Of a stretch of DNA of 64,000 nucleotides, positions 9,023 to 20,291 are shown in pieces. The stretch is from Sialis fuliginosa (lineage: Eukaryota; Arthropoda; Insecta; Megaloptera; Sialidae). Position 1 is the first letter of the stretch, and every line of letters starts with the position of its first letter. A program made the translations under genes and the position numbers. The notes under the pieces were generated by a model. The model searched no databases and was not told where the DNA came from. It saw nothing but the letters and a program-made list of their open reading frames with translations. The DNA lies in contig OY540813.1 in the NCBI GenBank assembly GCA_961205875.1, positions 21,547,001-21,611,000 of the forward strand, given 5' to 3'.

Positions 9023-10251
9023 TATGGAGTTTGCTGGTGTTCATCCAGTGCCTATTTAGGTATTCTTAAAACTATTTTGTTTTAACAATCAAAGAATTTA
9101 TTTACTTATTTTTCACGACTTTGTTATTATCTTACACTAAAAGAATACGTACATTTTTTAAATTATTTTTGATAACACTGGTCTTAGTCGACTTACACAT
9201 ATTAATTAATTTACTTTTAATTGAAAGTTCGTACAACTAATTGAATGTTCGTACAATATAACAAACATTAATGTATAATTTGTTTTAAAGAAATGTTTCT
9301 TATAAAAAACGTAAATAAGTATTTCGAAAGAAAGTAAACATCTTATTAAAATAAATATTTGGATAATTAAAAGTACATAAAGAAAATAAAAAACATTTCT
9401 CGAGACCGTTGAATTAATTAATTAGAAAGATACAGATACCTCCTTTGATTAAAATTTAAAAAAATATATTTTTATTTGTTTTAATTTAATTAAAATTTTC
9501 TTATATAAGTATTTTAATATTTGTTTATTATGTATTAATAAAGATTTTAAAACTAAAATATTTCTGGCATTCGATGGAAATGTAAAAATAAACACTAAAA
9601 TAAAATTATATAAACGAAAGAGAGCGAATAGAAAATTCAATGTCTGGTTAAGGAGGAAGCAAAGATGAATCTCGCGCGAAGTAAATGTGTCTACTGGCGA
9701 GCGGACAAACGTGAACGCGCAATGTGTGTGTGTGTGTGTTTTTGTGTATCCATATATGTGTGTGTATATGTGTGTATGTCGACGGAAGTCGTAGTACCGG
9801 AAGTTGCAGAGGAAACCGTGAGAGCAATAACGCAAGATAAATAGATTGAAATTGGAAGAGAGAACTTAACTGAAAAGCTTCGTAAGTCCATCCGTTTGTA
9901 GGTTCATACTTTTTATGTATAATTGTAAATGCTTGCACATTTCAAATGCAGCTGAACTTTTTTTATTATCGACATTATGCATGAATTTTCACAGCTTTAT
10001 ATCTTAAAGAAAAATAAAAAAATGGTGTGTGTACTTATGTAGGTACACCCGTTAGAAGTTATTCTTCTTTGGCGTTATTGAAAAACAACACAATTTTTTG
10101 TTTAATTTATTTTAAATATATTTTAGGAACAGAATATTTCTTTAAAATATTAAAATCTTAATTTTGGAAAAAAACATATTTAAAACAAGAAAATATATTT
10201 AATCCCAACCTCCACACCCGGGGATAAAGGGGTTTAATTCCTTAATGAACA
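9023..10251. other. AT-rich spacer with TG microsatellite
   Basis: No gene recognised. A mixed TG/TATG tract lies at about 9722-9776. The last ~60 bp are the left flank of the CACTA element and join sensibly to the flank after 19886. Confidence 0.6.
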
Positions 10252-10281
10252 CACTGAAAGAATTTTGTGCTAATATCAAGC
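10252..10281 (+). repeat. CACTA element left terminal inverted repeat
   Basis: CACTGAAAGAATTTT, then GTGCTAATATCAAGC. Its partner is 19853-19886. After the 15 identical bases the two ends stay similar through TGCTAA...AGC with a small gap. Confidence 0.92.
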
Positions 10282-10419
10282 AGAAAACACGCATGATATA
10301 GAGCCAAGTAAAAAAAGCGCTTAATCACAAATGTAAATGCTAATATCAAGCACATTTTTTGTTGCTTGATTCTAGCAAAATAGTTTCTTGATTCAAGCAT
10401 CATAGTTTCTTAATCACTA

Positions 10420-10700
10420 ACTATTTAAGCATCTTTATTGCTTGTATTGAGAAACTATTTTGTTTATTTAAGCATCTTTACTACTTGTATTGAGAAATTT
10501 GTTTGCTTGTTTGAGTATTTTTATTGCTTGTATTGAGAAATTATTTTGTTTATTTAAGCATCTTTACTACTTGTATTGAGAATTTTTTTTGCTTGTTTGA
10601 GTATTTTTATTGCTTGTATTGAGAAATTCTTTTGCTTATTTAAGCATCTTTACTGCTTGTATTGAGAATTTTTTTTGCTTGTTTAAGCATTTTTATTACT
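10420..10700. repeat. Left subterminal repeat array
   Basis: About six copies of a core GCTTGTATTGAGAAA, alternating with TTTAAGCATCTTTA and TGCTTGTTTGAGTATTTT segments, form units of about 55 bp or half-units. The array lies 170-450 bp inside the left end, the position where CACTA elements carry binding sites for their own proteins. That function is inferred. Confidence 0.85.
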
Positions 10701-10828
10701 CACCCCCCTCTTTACCTACCCTCTCCCCCTACTTACTCCCCCCCTTTTTCTGAAAATAAATATAAAATAAAAATACTGTTTTTTTATTATATTCATTTAT
10801 TCATATATTTCTATATAATTATAATTTA

Positions 10829-11114
10829 GGGGTCGTCCAATCTTATGTTAACATTTTTAAATAAATTTTTACCCCTCCCCCAAACTTGTCAAAAATATTC
10901 AAAGCCCACGCTAATTTTTAATGTTAGAAAAATTTACCCCCTTCCCCACTATTTTTAATTCTAAAATGTTATGAATTGCAGAAATGATATAAATTTTTTA
11001 TTTAATTTTTTGACTTAATTATTAGCGCCAATTTGTTTTGGCTTCCCCGCTTTCTGTTGACAAGCATTTTATAAACCCACTCCCCATTTTGTTCATGTAA
11101 TTAATGGACGACCC
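10829..11114. mobile_element. Nested MITE with GGGTCGTCC ends, ~286 bp
   Basis: The left end GGGGTCGTCCAATCTTATGT and the reverse complement of the right end, GGGTCGTCCATTAATTACAT, are inverted repeats. TTTA immediately flanks both sides (10825-10828, 11115-11118), a candidate 4-bp duplication, although the left end has one extra G. No coding frame. It lies between the transposase polyadenylation signal and the left subterminal array, so it does not disrupt a gene. Superfamily not assigned. Confidence 0.72.
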
Positions 11115-11280
11115 TTTACATAATACACAGTAATACACATACATAATTAAATTATTATAACAAAATAAAAATTAACATAAATTTAAATAAACATAAAAAA
11201 TGTAGTTATTGATTATGTAAACAATATTTATCAATATTAATTTTTCAGCATAGTTTATTACTAAAATTATAGAAAAGTTG

Positions 11281-11286
11281 TTTATT
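11281..11286 (-). terminator. AATAAA polyadenylation signal after transposase
   Basis: On the minus strand an AATAAA lies 7 nt after the TAA stop of the transposase gene, and a second one lies near 11254. Either would give a very short 3' UTR. Cleavage position not determined. Confidence 0.5.
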
Positions 11287-11293
11287 ACTGATT

Positions 11294-13759
11294 TTAGATC
11301 AAACTAGGTCTTACACAATTCCTTCCATCTTCTAACTGATGAATGTCTATTGGTTTAATTTTGATGTTTAACGATAATTCTAGACAGCTTAATTTATTTG
11401 TTTCTTTTTTTACAAAGTAACAACGAAAATGTTTATTCATTTCAGTTATTGATATATTTTTAATTATAAGTATTGCAGTGATATTATTTTTTATTATTAT
11501 ATTTTCAATTTTATATAATTTTTTTAAGTGAAAAATATAGGAATTTTGTTTATAATGTGTATTTTTAAAATAAATAAATGGAGTTGAGAATAAAGGTTTA
11601 TCACTTTCAATTGTCAACTCATTATAACAAGATTCATTTTTTAAATCAAATTCTTTCAAAGTTGATACTTCAACAAAACAATTTAAATCTTTAGAAGAAT
11701 TCATTAAAAAATTAGTAAATCGTAAAGAAACTTTTTTTGCTAGAGATAGTGCTATATTTTTTCTTGAAGATGTAGAATTAGTGTAATTTTTCATTTCCCT
11801 GTGTTTACTTTCATATCTAAGACAATTATATTCTTTTAGTGGTCCTGACAGTTTGATTATTCTTGGATAGTGAATAAGAAAATGATGTTTAGGTTTAAGA
11901 GTATCGTCAAAAATATTTACATATGATTTATTATGTATAATAATTTTTTTTTTTAACTCATCGATATCATTTTCACTAAAAGAGTCATAAAAAATGATTT
12001 CAACTAATTCTTGTAATGTACATACATATTTCCAAACTGTATCATTTTGGGGAATAGAATGACCTAAAATACATGTTATAAAATTTAAAAATGTTAGTGA
12101 TTCTCTAGCAGACATTTTGAGTTTATTTGCTTTAATATGATCAATTGTAATTATTGCAGGGCGATTTTTAATTTCTCTTTCGCCATAATTAAATTGGTTT
12201 ACTTTATAATTAAAATCTTCAATTGTAATAAAATGTTTAATACAGATAAAATAATAAAGTGATTTAGCAAGACCATAGTCAATAACTCCTTCCAAAACAT
12301 CATGCATTATATCTACACTGTAATTTTCAGTAACATGAAATGCATCTAACTGATTCAAAATTGATTCTTCTTTAATGCCTGTTTTTTGATAATTTTGAGC
12401 TTTTATTAAATCTTTTTCATGATTAGATTTACTTTCTAAGCAATTATTTTGTTGATTAAAATGATTCTCATAGCCAAGTTTATTTCGGACAAGATTTTTT
12501 TTTTCACTTTGAGGTTTTCTTGTTTCTGATTTTGGCATTAAACAATGCCTACAAAAGTAAGTATGAGCAAATGATTTTGAAAAACCTAATAAAGAATTAA
12601 CAGCAGCATTATCTCCTAAAACTAATCCCAAAACAAAATAAACTTTTTCGATTCCCTTTTCTGTCTCTACATCTATTCCTTCAACTTCTAAAGATTTAAG
12701 AATTTCTAAAAGTGGAGTTAAGCATCGATCATTGCCTAAATCATTGAATATATTTTTTTTTAAAAACATTGCAACAAAAATATTATCAAGAGTTGAAGAA
12801 CCCAATGGCGACGTTGGAAAACTGTAATAAAATGATGATAATGTTTGACTTGTTGGATGACTTCCAAGTGGATCATCAATAGAAAATTCATCATAATATA
12901 AAAAATATGGGATTACTTTTTTATTTTCAAATATTGTTAATTTTTTTTTCCACAGTTCTCCATCGCAAAAACTAGATATTACTCCATTGTTTTGGTTATT
13001 TAAATTTGAATTATTTAAAGTTTTCTGCAAAATGCCTGGTATTTGAAAAAATTTTTGAATTTGAAATTTTAACGGTAATAAAATAGTTTCATTAACAGAA
13101 GAATCAAGACACACTTTGCCTTTTCTCATAACTTCTTTAACTGTTTGTGAAATCACTACTTTATTTGGTGCTTTATAAAGGTTGATTGAATCTAAATGTT
13201 TAAGAAGTAAAAATTCTGAATGAATATTTTTAAAAGGACAACTGCAAAGATTAAAAATATCTTCAATGATGCTACGATCTTCACCAAAAACTAGGGGTAA
13301 TATAATATCTTTTAGTAAATCAAATATGATAGTAAACACATTTTCACTCAAATCAGAAATTATGCCCTCAATCAGTTTATTTGTTACATTACTATAATTA
13401 TTCAATTTACAGATAAAATTTAATGCTGACGTTTGGAGAATTTCTTTCACATGTGATATTTCATTACTTAAGTCATGTTTAACTTTAAATCGTTTTTTTT
13501 CGGTATTAATTAGATTATCAACAGGCTTTGTTAAAGAAAAATTTACAGGAACTTGCTCACAAGCATTTACATCATTCTTAATTTCATGAGAATTTTTTAT
13601 ATGTTTAGTAAATCGAGTAATATCAGTAAAAGTGCTAGGACACCCAAACTGTCCACATTCATATGAATCTAATTTAAATTTTTGGTGAAAGTATTTTAAA
13701 TGAGAAATCAAAAATTTTGATGACGAAAATGTATCATTGCACACAAAACACTGTAACAT
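11294..13759 (-). CDS. CACTA-type transposase with N-terminal C2H2 zinc fingers (821 aa)
   Basis: Likely the enzyme that cuts and pastes this element. The start is the ATG at 13759; the frame is open ten codons further upstream but has no earlier ATG before the preceding gene's stop. Two C2H2 fingers lie at residues about 3-26 (CxxC...HxxxxH) and 34-58 (CxxxxC...HxxxxH). The middle holds GDNAAVNSLLGF with D383, then a CRHC pair, then VDIMHDVLEGV with D483 and D487, then KPKHHFLIHYP, and RYESKHREMKNY with E650. The D383/D483/E650 set is my proposed DDE triad. The DIMHDVLEGV and HFLIHYP blocks recur in transposase-like proteins of many animals; I infer the EnSpm link mainly from the element ends. 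There is no stop or frameshift in 2.4 kb. The ATG is 31 nt after the stop of the SAM gene, so both could share one transcript, or alternative splicing could expose this start. Confidence 0.85.
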   Translation of the reverse strand: MLQCFVCNDTFSSSKFLISHLKYFHQKFKLDSYECGQFGCPSTFTDITRFTKHIKNSHEIKNDVNACEQVPVNFSLTKPVDNLINTEKKRFKVKHDLSNEISHVKEILQTSALNFICKLNNYSNVTNKLIEGIISDLSENVFTIIFDLLKDIILPLVFGEDRSIIEDIFNLCSCPFKNIHSEFLLLKHLDSINLYKAPNKVVISQTVKEVMRKGKVCLDSSVNETILLPLKFQIQKFFQIPGILQKTLNNSNLNNQNNGVISSFCDGELWKKKLTIFENKKVIPYFLYYDEFSIDDPLGSHPTSQTLSSFYYSFPTSPLGSSTLDNIFVAMFLKKNIFNDLGNDRCLTPLLEILKSLEVEGIDVETEKGIEKVYFVLGLVLGDNAAVNSLLGFSKSFAHTYFCRHCLMPKSETRKPQSEKKNLVRNKLGYENHFNQQNNCLESKSNHEKDLIKAQNYQKTGIKEESILNQLDAFHVTENYSVDIMHDVLEGVIDYGLAKSLYYFICIKHFITIEDFNYKVNQFNYGEREIKNRPAIITIDHIKANKLKMSARESLTFLNFITCILGHSIPQNDTVWKYVCTLQELVEIIFYDSFSENDIDELKKKIIIHNKSYVNIFDDTLKPKHHFLIHYPRIIKLSGPLKEYNCLRYESKHREMKNYTNSTSSRKNIALSLAKKVSLRFTNFLMNSSKDLNCFVEVSTLKEFDLKNESCYNELTIESDKPLFSTPFIYFKNTHYKQNSYIFHLKKLYKIENIIIKNNITAILIIKNISITEMNKHFRCYFVKKETNKLSCLELSLNIKIKPIDIHQLEDGRNCVRPSLI

Positions 13760-13790
13760 TTTGTACAAACTTCGAACAAAGGAGAACAAG

Positions 13791-16412
13791 TTATATATTA
13801 CTCATTACCAGTATATTTTTTACTGTTAATTTTTCTACAGTTGTAATAAAATTTTTTATGTCACCACCAATATCTGGTTTAGTGATTTTATAAAGGCTGG
13901 CCTGAATAAATTGCCATACCTTTTCACTTTCAAATGGATATTCTAAATTTAGAACAAAAAACAGTTTAAAGCAAATATCTAATGCTGATAAAAAAGTATT
14001 AAATTTGTAGTATATTTTGTCATATACCAATAAATAATTATGTTCATCAATAACATCTACAATGAACGGCTGTAAAGTTTTTCCGAAATGTCTATACTTT
14101 TCTCTCTTTTTACTGATAATATCTGATATTAATGCACTGTTCTTCACTGTCACTATAATCGAGTCTTGTGAATCACTGATACTGGGTTTCCACACTTTTT
14201 TGTCTTTGTTGTAAGTTCGGCTAGATGGTACAAGTATTGCAGATAAAATTTTAATTATATATATATTTCGTTGATCTAAAAAAAGTAAAATGTTAGATTA
14301 AAATATAATATTTTGAACTATGTAATTTGTAATATATTTAATTTAATTAGCTATATTATATATAGCTGGATTATTTACCTTCAACTGTAGTATTCTTAAG
14401 TATATTATATAGTTTCATTGACGATCTATCTTTAATTAAATCTTCAATTTTTCCATTATCTATATAAGTAGTTAAAGTATTCCAATTTAAAAATAAATTT
14501 AACCCTTTATCTTTAAATTCATACTTAAAATCAATGTCTACCTAAAAATTTAATTGAATTAAAATATATTCAATAAACATTTTCTTAAATATAATTAAAT
14601 AAAATTAATTGAAATATATTTTCAACTTTAATTGTCCATAGAACATGAAGACTATAATGTACCATCGGCTGCAAGTTTGCATTCAAATTCGTTTATCACA
14701 AACTGAGTAGGCTCCTCCCATTTAATTATTATAATATTTAAATCATTTCTACGTGTACCAAACAGACAGATATTTGATACAAAGAAAACCGATATACTGG
14801 TTCTTATATTTTCGAAACGTAAGCGAAATTGAACCTAGACGTGGTAGACCACTTGTGCAGCCGATGGTACATGAAAATATTAAAAATTTGTTCGCATTTT
14901 TAAGACTTTGGATCAAAGAGAATAATATGCAATTGTGAAATTTTCATTCTTAAATAACTACAAAAATTAATTTTGACTTACCAATACACTTCCATTTACA
15001 TGACTATATAATGGCCAATCAGACAATAAATCAACAGACTTGGTAGCAGCACTACATTTAAATTCTTGTGATCGTAATTGGCATGTTTGTTTCCAATTTT
15101 CTTTTATTTCGTCCCAGGGTTCCGCATGATTTTTTAGCCATAATTTAATGTGGTCAAATGTATGCCCATTTTCTTCATCAGCAGCATCCACAAGAGAAAT
15201 ATTATTTTTATTTATTTTTCCAAAAGTCAATCCTATAGATCTTAATCTATGTGTACTATTACGGTATCTATTATATAATATACCTTTTGGTTTTGGAATA
15301 CGAGTGTAGTAGAAAGACTAAAAATAAAATTGATATATTAAAATTCTATTTTATTATTACTTATTTATAAAAATAGTATCTATTAAATTATGTTGATATA
15401 CCATTTGTAATATAATGTAAACATTAATAAACTGATGATTCTTTTAAGCATTTTAAACTGTATCATAAAATTATACATAAAACTATAAAGTCTATTCACA
15501 TTTACCTTATTTTCAGTTGGTACTAAATTTACTATTTTGTTTGATATATTTTCAAAAATTCGTTGTGGGACATGAGTTGTTTTATTATGAAGAATTTCAA
15601 CAATTTTATGTGCCAACAATTCTCTTATTTTATTAGTTGGTGTAATTTTTAATTGATTAATTATAGGTGAAATTGATTCATTTGAAAACAATTCATTTAT
15701 ATTCTAAAATAAAATATAAATTACTTCATAACATTATAACAAAGCTAGTTGTGGAGATGATGAGAATAGTGAATTATAATAAAAGTGATAAAAGTTTGTG
15801 GGGAGAGATCAAGGCAGTGGATGTATTAATATAAAATTTACAAAACATACAATATCATTAACATTATTATCTTCACTGGATAAATAAGGACTGCTTCTAC
15901 CAGAACCCAAGTACGAATCAGAACGGGTAGGTGTACCAACTGACTGAGACTGCTCCTACCAAATGAAATCAATAATATAAATAGTAGTATATAATATAAA
16001 TATAGTTAACTTAATGTATTTAAAATAATAATGTAGAATTACGTTAAGATTTTTCCATTCTATGAGTTTTTTACGAAATTGTAGCCTGATTTTAAATTCA
16101 TTAGGATAAGGAAATAATTCTTTAAGATCTTCGTCATTAAAAAGTTTGATGTCCTCGATATGTAATTCTAAATCTAAGTGAACATATAAAAAATTAATAT
16201 TTTGAATAAATTCATTTGCATAAAAAAAATTAAATATATGCAATATATATAAATTTTTAAATTAACTTTATACCTTTAAATTTTGTTTTTAAAAATGGTA
16301 ATTCCCATTGAACTAAAAGTTCATCGAGTGGAGTTTCTTGAAAGTTTTCAAGTAGTGTATATTCTAGAGTTTGATAATCAGGATCACTATAACTAGGAAT
16401 GTGTGTTTCCAT
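13791..16412 (-). CDS. SAM-domain accessory protein of the CACTA element (spliced, 518 aa)
   Basis: Seven coding exons join in frame with GT...AG introns: 16412-16274, 16173-16043, 15955-15851, 15703-15506, 15317-14982, 14541-14379 and 14275-13791, totalling 1557 nt including TAA. The N-terminal domain (residues about 31-88, exons 1-2) resembles a sterile alpha motif: WELPFLKTKFKDLEL, then DIKLFNDEDLKELFP, then a basic KIRLQFRKKLIEW helix. A Ser-rich linker follows (91-125), then a helical segment (126-191) and a segment with IKLWLKNHAEPWDEIKENW (192-303). The C-terminal 160 residues (exon 7) match nothing I recognise. SAM domains usually mediate protein self-association; here a role in assembling transposase or ends, like the second protein of plant CACTA elements, is inference. 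All junction phases agree, so the gene looks functional. An extra exon inside the 440-nt fifth intron cannot be excluded. Confidence 0.8.
14640..14940. other. Intron segment with 17-bp inverted repeat and a 61-codon frame
   Basis: Inside intron 5 of the SAM gene, ATGTACCATCGGCTGCA occurs on the plus strand at about 14658 and inverted at about 14858-14875. A plus-strand frame at 14753-14938 includes RRGRPLVQPMVHEN and KNLFAFLRLWIKENN, which look protein-like but which I cannot assign. On the minus strand a piece with WEEPTQFVINEFECKLAADG is also open. It may be an alternative exon or a small inserted fragment. Confidence 0.35.
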
Positions 16413-18571
16413 TTTGTGTATGATCTGCTTCAATAATTATTATAATATATATTTATATATATATGTTATTCAGATTTTCCATGAAATAATTTGGAGTTAT
16501 AATCTGTAGATATTGACAAGAAATTTTAATAAATATTGTAATAGAAATGATCAAAAAATATTTTTACTAAAATACATAATTAAAACAATTAGGTACATTA
16601 TCAAAAAAATATTGCCTAGCTTTATTTATTTGAAGTTGTATAATATGACGTTTATCATAAAAATGGTAAATTTTTACTTTAAGGTGTAATGTTTTTCACT
16701 TTACGAAATTGCCACTAAGATATCGATATTTTACAGATGTAATTAAGTTTTTCACATAAATACTTTATATTTCAATAAAAAAATGAATATTCCATGCTAA
16801 ATATGTCCTTATTTTCATAAATTTACTTAAATTTTGACTTATAATACGGACGCCATAATGTACTTATGTATACCCAAAGATATCATGAGTCTAATTGTAA
16901 AGCCCGCTTTCCACTGCAAGCGGAGCGGGGTCCTTACGGACTACGTTTGACTCGCAAATGTAACTTGCATAGTAATGCTTCCACCAACAAAGAGTCAAGT
17001 AGAACGGACTGAGCGAGTAAAAATAGTTAAGAACGAGCTCGTTCCGCTAAAACAAACGGAGCGGTGTCCGTACGGACTCCGTTCGACTAGCAATCGAAAA
17101 TTACATAGTAGCACTTCCACTGGTAAAGGGGTAAGCGGAACGGATCAAACGAATAAAAATAGGTAAGAACGAGTTCGCTGCGTCACATTGCCACTGACTA
17201 GTTTGTGACGGACTCCGCGTGCCACCGAGGTGAAATAGCTTCCCTAAAGTTGGTATTTTGTTTTAAAATATCGGCCTCTATAAATGACAGAAGTTCTTAA
17301 AATTGTTCTCTGCTAACTCTGAAGTAATTCTTGAATTGTTCATCATGTAAATCATAGAACAATCTATATTCACCTCTCAACGGTCTCTCTTTGATATGAT
17401 TACTTAACCAAAACCTTGGTTTGGCGCGCTTTTTCTTGTATACTTATATAATTAAACATTTCTTTGTTTGCATATAGTCAGAATCGGCTTCACGAGATTT
17501 CCCTTCCAAATACAAAGTCCGACTAGACTCGCTCGCAATGGAATTTGACCGATTTCTCATTTTCCGTTTAACTCGCTCCGCTCATTTCTCGTTTTCATTT
17601 CTCTTTCGCAATGGAAGGGAAATAATAAAAATTATCAAAACTTTTTGTTAATGGAAGGCAAAACCTACTTTAACTAGTTAGACCCCGTTCAGCTCAACTA
17701 TTTCTCGCACATTACCCTTTTGCAGTGGAAAGCCCGCTTAAGCGACTTTTAAATTTGGCCAGCATTGCTATCAAGCGGCATAATATATTGTTTATTATTA
17801 ACAATGGCTTGTAATAGTTGCAAAGTAACTTTTTGAGTTTTTAGTCATTTGTAACGAAAATAAACAAAAATTAATACAATTTTTAAACTCTTATAACGTA
17901 ATAAAGAAAAATAAAATATATGAAAGGTGAAATTCTATGTGTAAAATTCGAAGCAATAAGTTTATATGTTCTGTCATATTTATTAAATATGTCAAGATCA
18001 TTATAGAACAGTTCGTTACGGCGGTAATTAAATCTCCGTTTTAATCTAAATTAACCCCCTTTTGCCCACGGAGATTGCCCAAACCAGTTAACGTGTATTT
18101 ACGTTTATTAAATTTGACAATATTATTTAAAAACAATGTATTCACGTCATCCAATATGCCGTTTCTTTGAAATAGTGTACCGCATAATCTGTATGTTTTC
18201 TGAATCTATTAAACGTTTGTTTCAATCAATTTCGTCTAGTATTTACATCTTACACTAAAACTTTACCATAAATATTAATAATATATTAGTTTTATAAATA
18301 AATAATAGTTTAACACATGAAATATAAAAAAAATATTTTTTATTTATAGCAACTATATTTGTCACATGTTTGTATTTTATCTATATATAATATAATAACA
18401 CATTTATATATAGTAAAATAATTTGGAGCACTAAAACGATAAATAACCAATACATGTTATTATAATTAGGTGAGAAAACATAGTAGGTTTAATCAAATAT
18501 GACTACGCATTATTATTATATTATACAGGTAATATAATATATTCTTGATAATTTAGAAAAATAAACTTACC
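16413..18571 (-). other. 5' UTR and long leader intron of the SAM gene
   Basis: A perfect donor (CAG followed by GTAAGT) lies at 18571/18570 on the minus strand. A matching acceptor (GAAGCAG) ends at 16425, leaving a 12-nt leader before the ATG at 16412. This defines a noncoding first exon ending at 18571 and an intron of about 2.1 kb that now contains the Harbinger-type MITE at 16901-17738. Exon start not determined. Confidence 0.6.
16901..17738. mobile_element. PIF/Harbinger-type MITE nested in the CACTA element, 838 bp
   Basis: Ends: AGCCCGCTTTCCACTGCAAG on the left and, reverse-complemented, AGCGGGCTTTCCACTGCAAA on the right. The flanking trinucleotide TAA is present on both sides (16898-16900, 17739-17741), the 3-bp TWA duplication of PIF/Harbinger elements. 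The left half contains a ~130-bp tandem duplication (about 16918-17035 and 17056-17175) with GAGCGG, TACGGACT, CACTTCCAC-like and AAGAACGAG landmarks. GC-richer than its host. No transposase. Confidence 0.85.
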
Positions 18572-18709
18572 TGTTGCAGTGACACTAGCAGCACAAATAT
18601 AGATACAAAATATTATACAATAAAACACATCAAATAAATGCAAAAACAAATCGTATGCGAGCGTGCTCTGCACAAGATGGATGAATGGTGAATGAGGTTC
18701 AGCATGTTG

Positions 18710-18740
18710 CTATACGCTTATACGCATGCGCAATAGCCAT
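18710..18740 (-). promoter_or_regulatory. Candidate promoter of the CACTA genes
   Basis: On the minus strand, ATTGCGCATGCGTATAAGCG combines a palindromic GCGCATGCG core (like NRF-1/erect-wing sites) with a TATAAG. It lies about 140 nt upstream of the donor that ends the leader exon. The GC-richer patch around it fits a start region. Start site not determined; inference from motifs only. Confidence 0.4.
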
Positions 18741-19079
18741 AGACGCCGTAAGTAAAGCGCGAATTTTAAATTTTATCACAAATTACTATATTATATTCGT
18801 TTTTAAAGGTTGCTTATTTTTATTTTTTAATAGAATTACATAACAATAAATAAGAAATACAAGTTAAAATACACATTTAATAAATTTTTTTACTTTGGCA
18901 ATAATTTAATTTAATTTAATATAGTTAACATAACATGAACTGTAGATTGTATACAACTAACCTTTTGTTTTTATTTAATTTACAAATTGCCTAATATATG
19001 CAATATGCCAATATATTATGGTATATTGCTACATATAGTATTTATTACAATTATCTTAATATCATTAAAAGTAACATGT

Positions 19080-19435
19080 TACCTTTTATAATATAATTTG
19101 ATTAGGTAACTATGAGAAAACACGAAAAAATATTTAAAATCTGAAATAAAATTTTGCAAATTCTTAAATATTTACCTTTTATAATATAATTTGATTATGT
19201 GAAAACACGAAAAAAATATTTAAAAAAATCTTAAACTAGTGGTTCTTTTCATTTAAGCTTTAAATGATAATATCTGAAATAAAATTTTGAAAATCTTCAA
19301 TATTTAATTTTTACAATATAATCCGATTATGTAGGAACACAAAAAAATATTTTAAAAAATCTTAGACCAGTCGTTCTTTAGATTTAAGCTTTAACAGATT
19401 ACAATATCAGAAATAAAATTGTGCAAATGATTAAT
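19080..19435. repeat. Imperfect tandem repeat near the right end of the CACTA element
   Basis: Three related units start near 19081, 19176 and 19310 with CCTTTTATAATATAATTTGA or a variant, followed by AACACGAAAAAA-like and CTGAAATAAAATTTTG-like segments. Unit lengths differ (about 95 and 135 bp) because the later units contain an extra segment. Confidence 0.75.
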
Positions 19436-19589
19436 CTCTATGCAATATTTAGTCTAATATTTTACAGACAAGTAATTATTTATCATAACAAACGTTATTT
19501 ATAGATAGGTTTGTTATTATTTATAATAACAATTTTTAAGTGTTGAATTATATTCATTAACGCTTCACTTATTTTTATGTGAATGATAT

Positions 19590-19852
19590 TGAGAAATATT
19601 ATTGCTAATATTAAGCATACAAATTAAGAGAAAAATGTGCTAATATCAAGAAAAATGTATGCTTACTTACAAAATGCTTATATCAAGCATGAAATTGCTT
19701 GATACTAGCATAAAATTTCTCAATAACTGTTGTTGTGAATCGAGCAAAAAGTATGCTTATTCAAGAACAAATTTATGCTTAATATAAACGATAAACATGC
19801 TTAATACAAGAAATTTTTGTTCTTAATCATGAAATGTTTTTGAGCACTGTGA
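19590..19852. repeat. Right subterminal repeat field
   Basis: Many short motifs related to GCTAATATCAAGCA, TGCTTGATACTAGCA, ATGCTTA and TATTGAGAAAT occur in both orientations, matching those near the left end (10260-10400). This is the expected subterminal structure of a CACTA element. Confidence 0.8.
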
Positions 19853-19886
19853 TTGCTAATATTTAGCATGAAAAATTCTTTCAGTG
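19853..19886 (-). repeat. CACTA element right terminal inverted repeat
   Basis: On the minus strand it reads CACTGAAAGAATTTTTCATG then CTAAATATTAGC. It pairs with 10252-10281. The next bases, CATGTAAAG, are flank. Confidence 0.92.
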
Positions 19887-19984
19887 CATGTAAAGAAAAA
19901 GTGCATTTTTGCCCCATGTAGGTAAGCACTAATAAAATCACCACAGGGAGTTAGTTTATGAAAAGTTAGATAGTGAAAGTGCAA

Positions 19985-20291
19985 TGGGCAGATGCGTAGG
20001 GTGGGGATAAGGGGCAGGCAGACGCATTCAAAGATGCAATTTTTTTAATTGCTCCCATTTGAGCATTGATGAATTTTGGTGGTATGGCAGTTTTTGATCT
20101 GTAGATGACCGGAAAAACAAAGGCAGACGCGTAGGATGGGGATAAGGGGCGGGCAGACGCGCTCAAACATGCAATTTTTTAAATGAAAATTGTCTCATTT
20201 GAGCATTGCTGAATTTTTTGAAGGATGACAGGTTTTGATCTGTAGATGACCGAAAAAAACATAAGTAGACGTGTAGTGTGGGGATAAGGGA
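19985..20291. repeat. Minisatellite, ~135-bp unit, about 2.3 copies
   Basis: The phrase GCAGACGCGTAGG.TGGGGATAAGGGGC recurs at about 19988, 20121 and 20265. Between copies are shared segments: GATGCAATTTTTT, CATTTGAGCATTG.TGAATTTT and TTTTTGATCTGTAGATGACC. The short minus-strand frames here (S-, A- and P-rich) are by-products of the repeat. It lies just outside the right end of the CACTA element. Confidence 0.85.

Follow-up and report, generated by a model that had tools for sequence, protein, structure and literature searches.

A 64,000-nucleotide stretch of the Sialis fuliginosa genome (the window; C5:21547001-21611000 in an assembly of 392,097,322 bases and 20 contigs) raises the question of whether its positions 10252..19886 hold a complete two-gene transposon of the CACTA type, as a reading of the sequence alone had proposed, and whether such an element has moved in recent times. 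We find it best explained as a member of the CACTA/EnSpm-Mirage-Chapaev-Transib (CMCT) clade, a DNA transposon that is autonomous, moves by cut-and-paste and has been very recently mobile in this genome, a reading to which we give a probability of about 0.9. The two-gene CACTA-type assignment is borne out by clade motifs, the predicted fold of the transposase, the ends, the target-site duplications and the existence of other copies. The extent of the element and its terminal features are listed here, with the strand where a feature has one.

10250..10251, left target-site duplication, 2 bp (CA)
10252..19886, whole element, 9635 bp; same ends in four copies at unrelated loci
10252..10266, plus strand, left terminal inverted repeat CACTGAAAGAATTTT, 15 bp, perfect
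10268..10400, left subterminal repeats of the TGCTAATATCAAGCA type
10422..10697, array of 43/86-bp tandem repeats containing motif GCTTGTATTGAGAA
19603..19873, right subterminal repeats
19872..19886, minus strand, right terminal inverted repeat CACTGAAAGAATTTT, 15 bp, perfect
19887..19888, right target-site duplication, 2 bp (CA)

The matching termini of the sequence-only reading are exact, and the two exact matches of the 15-bp repeat within the window are the two ends of the element. When up to three mismatches are allowed, the window contains 16 matches against 8.4 expected, and the looser ones were for this reason taken as chance. Across the genome the repeat is matched exactly 14 times, compared with once for a reversed control. 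Nine of the 14 lie in copies of the element: eight mark the two ends of four full-length copies, and the ninth bounds a truncated one. The other full-length copies, at C4:8074163-8082965, C5:10896679-10905481 and C12:4247296-4256098, are 8803 bp each and show no differences among them (L009, L010 and L011, the last being the copy on C12). Compared with these, the window copy carries an 841-bp insertion, lacks 9 bases (deletions of 1 and 8) and is substituted at 11 positions. All three share both ends and both genes with the window copy, and in none do the termini extend beyond CACTG. The truncated copy, at C5:3623546, is 100% identical to the element over its first 1249 bp. Loci around the five remaining exact matches were compared with the 8803-bp element by blastn (E 1e-5); short non-autonomous copies, considered at C1, C2, C4:23055863, C5:10668986 and C6, gave no blastn row, and because of this lack of similarity the five matches were dropped as chance.

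The termini read 5'-CAC..GTG-3' in all four full-length copies, with the pentamer CACTG in place of CACTA. Each copy is bordered by a 2-bp target-site duplication (CA in the window, then TA, CG and CA), a set of four matches expected by chance at about 6e-5 (assuming 29% G+C); a 3-bp duplication is found in 0/4 copies and TA in 1/4. The subterminal repeats claimed from the sequence are concentrated near the ends: on copy L009, TGCTAATATCAAGCA at up to three mismatches occurs eight times at the ends (outer ~500 bp) and never in the middle, and at up to four mismatches 11 times at the ends and three times in the middle. Flanks of ~500 bp from different copies show no similarity to one another. 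At the C12 copy only, the left and right flanks are alike (92% over 220 bp) in inverted orientation, and this copy sits in, or near the end of, one arm of an inverted repeat (~91% over 235 bp).

Two older pieces of the element, at C14:4776231-4778539 and C1:43070882-43072308, are ~99.2% identical to it and contain stops. At the two variable sites that they cover, both carry the base of the window copy, and the three identical copies therefore hold derived bases there. These three copies probably stem from one recent source. Since three of the four full-length copies are identical, it is very probable that the element moved recently in this genome; it may still be active today, a possibility that the identical copies strengthen.

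The single-exon gene A and the candidate polyadenylation signal behind it lie on the minus strand.

11254..11259, minus strand, candidate polyadenylation signal AATAAA (TTTATT on the plus strand), read by eye
11294..13759, minus strand, gene A, transposase, 821 aa plus stop, one exon

Both had been claimed from the sequence and both stand, the signal as a candidate. The transposase frame is uninterrupted over 835 aa, of which 821 are counted from the methionine (residue 15 in the 835-aa numbering used below), and in a search of the genome (30 rows from 36 candidates scored; counts from it are lower bounds) all 835 aa of its product are identical in 4/4 full-length copies. The protein has two C2H2-type fingers at its N-terminus, followed by D304, D397, C417/C420, H640/H644 and E664. 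In the alignment, C(2)C and H(3)H thus fall between the second aspartate and the last glutamate of the Asp-Asp-Glu (DDE) triad, which is the pattern given for the CMCT clade, C(2)C followed by H(3-4)H (PMC12730594). The predicted structure has an RNase H-like fold whose best matches are RAG1 and Transib, at ~10% sequence identity. We considered E504 (in MHDVLEG), which is kept in 7/8 rows, as the catalytic glutamate; E664, absent in one of six alignment rows (L037), was preferred because of the motif order and the extent of the RAG1 match.

Gene B lies upstream of gene A on the same strand, and its exons are as follows.

16274..16412, minus strand, exon 1, start codon 16412-16410
16043..16173, minus strand, exon 2; SAM-like by eye together with exon 1, no SAM match in the databases
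15851..15955, minus strand, exon 3, Ser-rich linker; alternative starts 15949 or 15943
15506..15703, minus strand, exon 4
14982..15317, minus strand, exon 5
14379..14541, minus strand, exon 6
13791..14275, minus strand, exon 7, stop codon 13793-13791; the part conserved in other families

The seven exons join as predicted through six GT-AG introns to encode a 518-aa protein. The acceptor of exon 3 is not unique, the frame being kept by three of the four acceptors tried. No SAM domain was matched in Pfam or among PDB sequences, also when the SAM-like stretch was searched by itself; the resemblance is one seen by eye. The structure model of exon 7 (mean predicted local distance difference test score 58.7) was too poor for a fold search.

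Relatives of gene B were sought by tblastn on loci collected from this genome, excluding the seven loci of this family's full-length copies. In three further families and at one further locus, a match to the C-terminal half of gene B precedes the transposase on the same strand.

F3 (L027-L030; C6:2874139, C4:18106568, C10:3684966 and C5:31892345), gene B relative upstream
F2 (L025, L032), gene B relative short and partly broken
F4 (L031), gene B relative upstream
L034, gene B relative holding a stop

The transposases of F2-F4 are 25-31% identical to the gene A product. In F3 and F4 the last exon of the gene B relative is open, each aligning at 27% identity to that of the window with 12 invariant columns. 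Because at least three further families have a gene B relative just ahead of the transposase and on its strand, gene B is probably part of the transposition machinery. Between members of F3 there are 2 to 13 substitutions and up to 32 gap columns in ~5.2 kb, and 4/4 keep an 816-aa frame open; judged by these sequences, F3 is another young family of this clade. Besides this family and F3, the rows of the transposase search include several more diverged families. Of all rows, 13/30 fall on contig C14, where diverged relatives are clustered at 6184263-6306781 and 648964-650681. One of these relatives, L037, weakly resembles fungal Plavaka (E 0.018).

Two stretches bear on how the genes may be expressed.

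13760..13790, minus strand, 31-bp gap between the gene B stop and the gene A start; pyrimidine-rich candidate acceptor, first exon base 13769
18571..18732, minus strand, candidate promoter and 5' non-coding exon region, proposed from motifs

A site that we take to be NRF1-like, TGCGCATGCGTA, begins at 18732, and the element has a single CAG|GTAAGT donor, which places an intron start at 18570. From this donor, a 5' non-coding exon would splice to 16424 to express gene B, or alternatively to 13769 to express gene A, so that both genes would derive from one minus-strand transcription unit; this is a weaker step than the others that we propose. Acceptor-like sites are also seen by eye before the transposase ATG in F3 and F4.

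How far is the window copy intact? Its coding capacity is intact, yet it is not the cleanest copy. The sequence-only reading had called it apparently intact, and this stands for the open coding frames and not for the element as a whole, which is split by a nested insertion missing from 3/3 other full-length copies.

16898..17738, nested insertion, 841 bp (838 bp plus a TAA duplication), window copy only

About 490 bp separate the insertion from the start codon of gene B, upstream of which it lies; it would fall in the first intron if splicing proceeds from the donor at 18570. Its inverted ends are ~19 bp (AGCCCGCTTTCCACTGCAA at the left and a near-matching right end), it contains an internal 136-bp tandem repeat, and from the TAA duplication we take it to be PIF/Harbinger-like. 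At the protein level, the window copy and the others differ only in gene B, which has H at residue 51 in the window and N elsewhere. Two further short inserts with inverted ends, resembling miniature inverted-repeat transposable elements, are found at 10826-11120 (GGGGTCGTCCA..) and 14641-14890 (ATGTACCATCGGCTGCA..). Both are present in the other full-length copies, the former also in the truncated copy, and they therefore predate the amplification of the element. Just beyond the right end of the element, a 135-bp tandem repeat (GGCAGACGCGTAGGGTGGGGATAAGGGG..) occupies window positions 19987-20290.

We propose that the transposase would bind the clustered subterminal repeats, with the C2H2 fingers as candidate binders, pair the ends, and cut 5' of CAC through a RAG1/Transib-like DDE site (D304, D397, E664), after which the ends would be joined to the target with a 2-bp stagger. 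Gene B would supply an accessory protein for transposition or its control, by analogy with what the second protein does in plant CACTA elements.

Several observations weigh against this account. No clear empty site was found: the paralogous repeat arm beside the C12 copy was considered as one and rejected as too weak, since its alignment crosses the junction by ~12 bp and contains mismatches and a gap. The single transcription unit is read from motifs. The structure model of gene A is of middling confidence, and its Pfam matches (FOXP-CC, E 0.0012; DUF4218, E 0.018; EndoS_helical, E 0.069; zf-C2H2_4, E 4) lie below the curated cut-offs, while Transposase_21 was matched only in the relative L031 (E 0.01, also sub-threshold). 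The second protein had been called domain-bearing; this was not confirmed, as gene B reaches no Pfam family (best Nop5_N, E 0.64). A comparison of its residues 1-191 with PDB returned 15 sequences to E 1, the best of which (E 0.0031) is a designed protein and was taken as chance. The gene B relative is short and partly broken in F2 and interrupted by a stop at L034, no gene B match was found in the 1.5 kb or less of sequence covered upstream of the transposases at L037, L039 and L040, and F2 has no acceptor evident by eye before its transposase ATG.

Beyond this genome, searches for transposase relatives in genome and viral contig sets gave 59 and 11 pattern matches, none of them confirmed, and the transposase alignment A1 offered no sufficiently conserved stretch for the same search.

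Could the four copies have arisen without transposition? Three identical copies might equally result from segmental duplication or from an error in the assembly, but the similarity ends precisely at CACTG..CAGTG, the flanks are unrelated and each copy has its own 2-bp duplication, which together make this explanation very improbable. A closer contender concerns classification, namely that the element belongs to a separate CMCT lineage (Plavaka- or ESTA-like, or new) and not to EnSpm/CACTA proper. The 2-bp duplication, the sub-threshold Pfam matches, the CACTG termini and the resemblance of the distant relative L037 to Plavaka all point that way. Against them stand CAC..GTG termini, which are those of EnSpm and differ from the TGT or CATCA ends of Plavaka, the occurrence of TA, the duplication of ESTA, in just one of the four copies, and matches to Transposase_21 in L031 and to DUF4218 in the window transposase, themselves sub-threshold. 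On balance we regard a separate lineage as rather unlikely, and favour an EnSpm-like element of the CMCT clade.

Gene B might instead be a captured host gene or a passenger with no role in transposition, as could be suspected from the failure to match any known transposition protein, the SAM-like appearance of its first exons by eye and the partly broken relative in F2. Against this, relatives of gene B keep its position and strand in families with transposases only 25-31% identical to the gene A product, and their last exons are open in F3 and F4. The gene B frame is open in the window copy as well as in L009, and L010 and L011 do not differ from L009. We consider a passenger improbable, and retain a role for gene B in transposition. 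The expression of the two genes is the point on which the alternatives come closest. In place of alternative splicing, the genes may be read from separate promoters or from one two-cistron message, or else an intron of 58 nt (13808-13751) may fuse the two proteins: the gap between the genes is only 31 bp, and the donor at 13808 and acceptor at 13750 were found by hand to join in frame. The gap does contain a pyrimidine-rich acceptor, however, from which the transposase ATG is the next ATG; on an ad hoc scale used to rank acceptors it scores 8.2 compared with 6.7 for the fusion acceptor, and the acceptor-like sites of F3 and F4 stand in the corresponding place. These alternatives fall somewhat short of even odds, and a single unit with alternative splicing is preferred. 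The most far-reaching version of our account is a tentative one that we hold to be doubtful: an active animal CACTA lineage of its own, with CACTG ends, 2-bp duplications, a RAG1-like transposase, an undescribed co-inherited partner and an alternatively spliced unit, would represent a two-gene solution independent of RAG1/RAG2. As a speculative extension of this idea, the partner might be related to vertebrate SAMD3-like proteins; were this true, the latter would be transposon-derived.

How does the element compare with known systems? With plant CACTA elements (maize En/Spm), in which clustered subterminal repeats are also found, it shares CACT-type ends, such repeats and a DDE transposase accompanied by a second protein. 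It differs from them in its 2-bp duplication, its CACTG termini and its single-exon transposase; in a plant study the duplication is 3 bp, alongside the DDE transposase and second protein (PMC4158355), and a fungal paper gives EnSpm CAC..GTG ends with 3-bp duplications (PMC12730594). Maize Spm is described in PMC1636069 as producing several proteins from one unit via alternative splicing, a likeness that extends to our element only if its proposed single unit holds. The sequence-only reading had called CACTA elements best known from plants; animal elements have been in print since 2006, when SmTRC1 was reported with 2-bp duplications and CCC ends (PMC1636069), and the share of CMC-EnSpm in the zebrafish genome is given as 4.69% (PMC4746887). 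Animal TRC elements (SmTRC1 of Schistosoma; Tribolium, Aedes) resemble ours in the 2-bp duplication, a CxxC motif and several proteins, whereas their ends start with CCC and not CACTG. Fungal Plavaka and ESTA (PMC12730594) share the CMCT motifs and in some cases a 2-bp duplication; they are set apart by TGT..ACA or CATCA..TGATG ends (Plavaka) and a TA duplication (ESTA), neither of which is the rule here. Because the plant type combines 3 bp with CACTA and TRC has CCC ends, the element is, on its sequence features, CMCT and EnSpm-like and neither of the plant type nor a TRC.

Among the literature matches listed (titles and abstract openings, with Repbase outside their scope) none describes a second gene of an animal EnSpm/CACTA element. 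This is thus a known kind of element with a recurring partner gene that we did not find described, and it merits study; the surprise is moderate because the general kind is already known. An animal CACTA element that is complete and has identical sister copies serves as a useful reference; the copies in this genome establish where it ends, that its duplication is 2 bp, how its genes are ordered and which residues are likely to be catalytic. It can also be set beside Transib and RAG1. The best fold matches, the D-D-C(2)C-H(3-4)H-E order and CAC at the cut end are held in common, the last also with ProtoRAG and the recombination signal sequence, while the ~10% identity, the 5-bp duplications of ProtoRAG and the different partner protein separate them. 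Transib also makes 5-bp duplications. A RAG1-like fold together with CAC ends offers a testable comparison for the evolution of RAG-type recombinases and their partner proteins.

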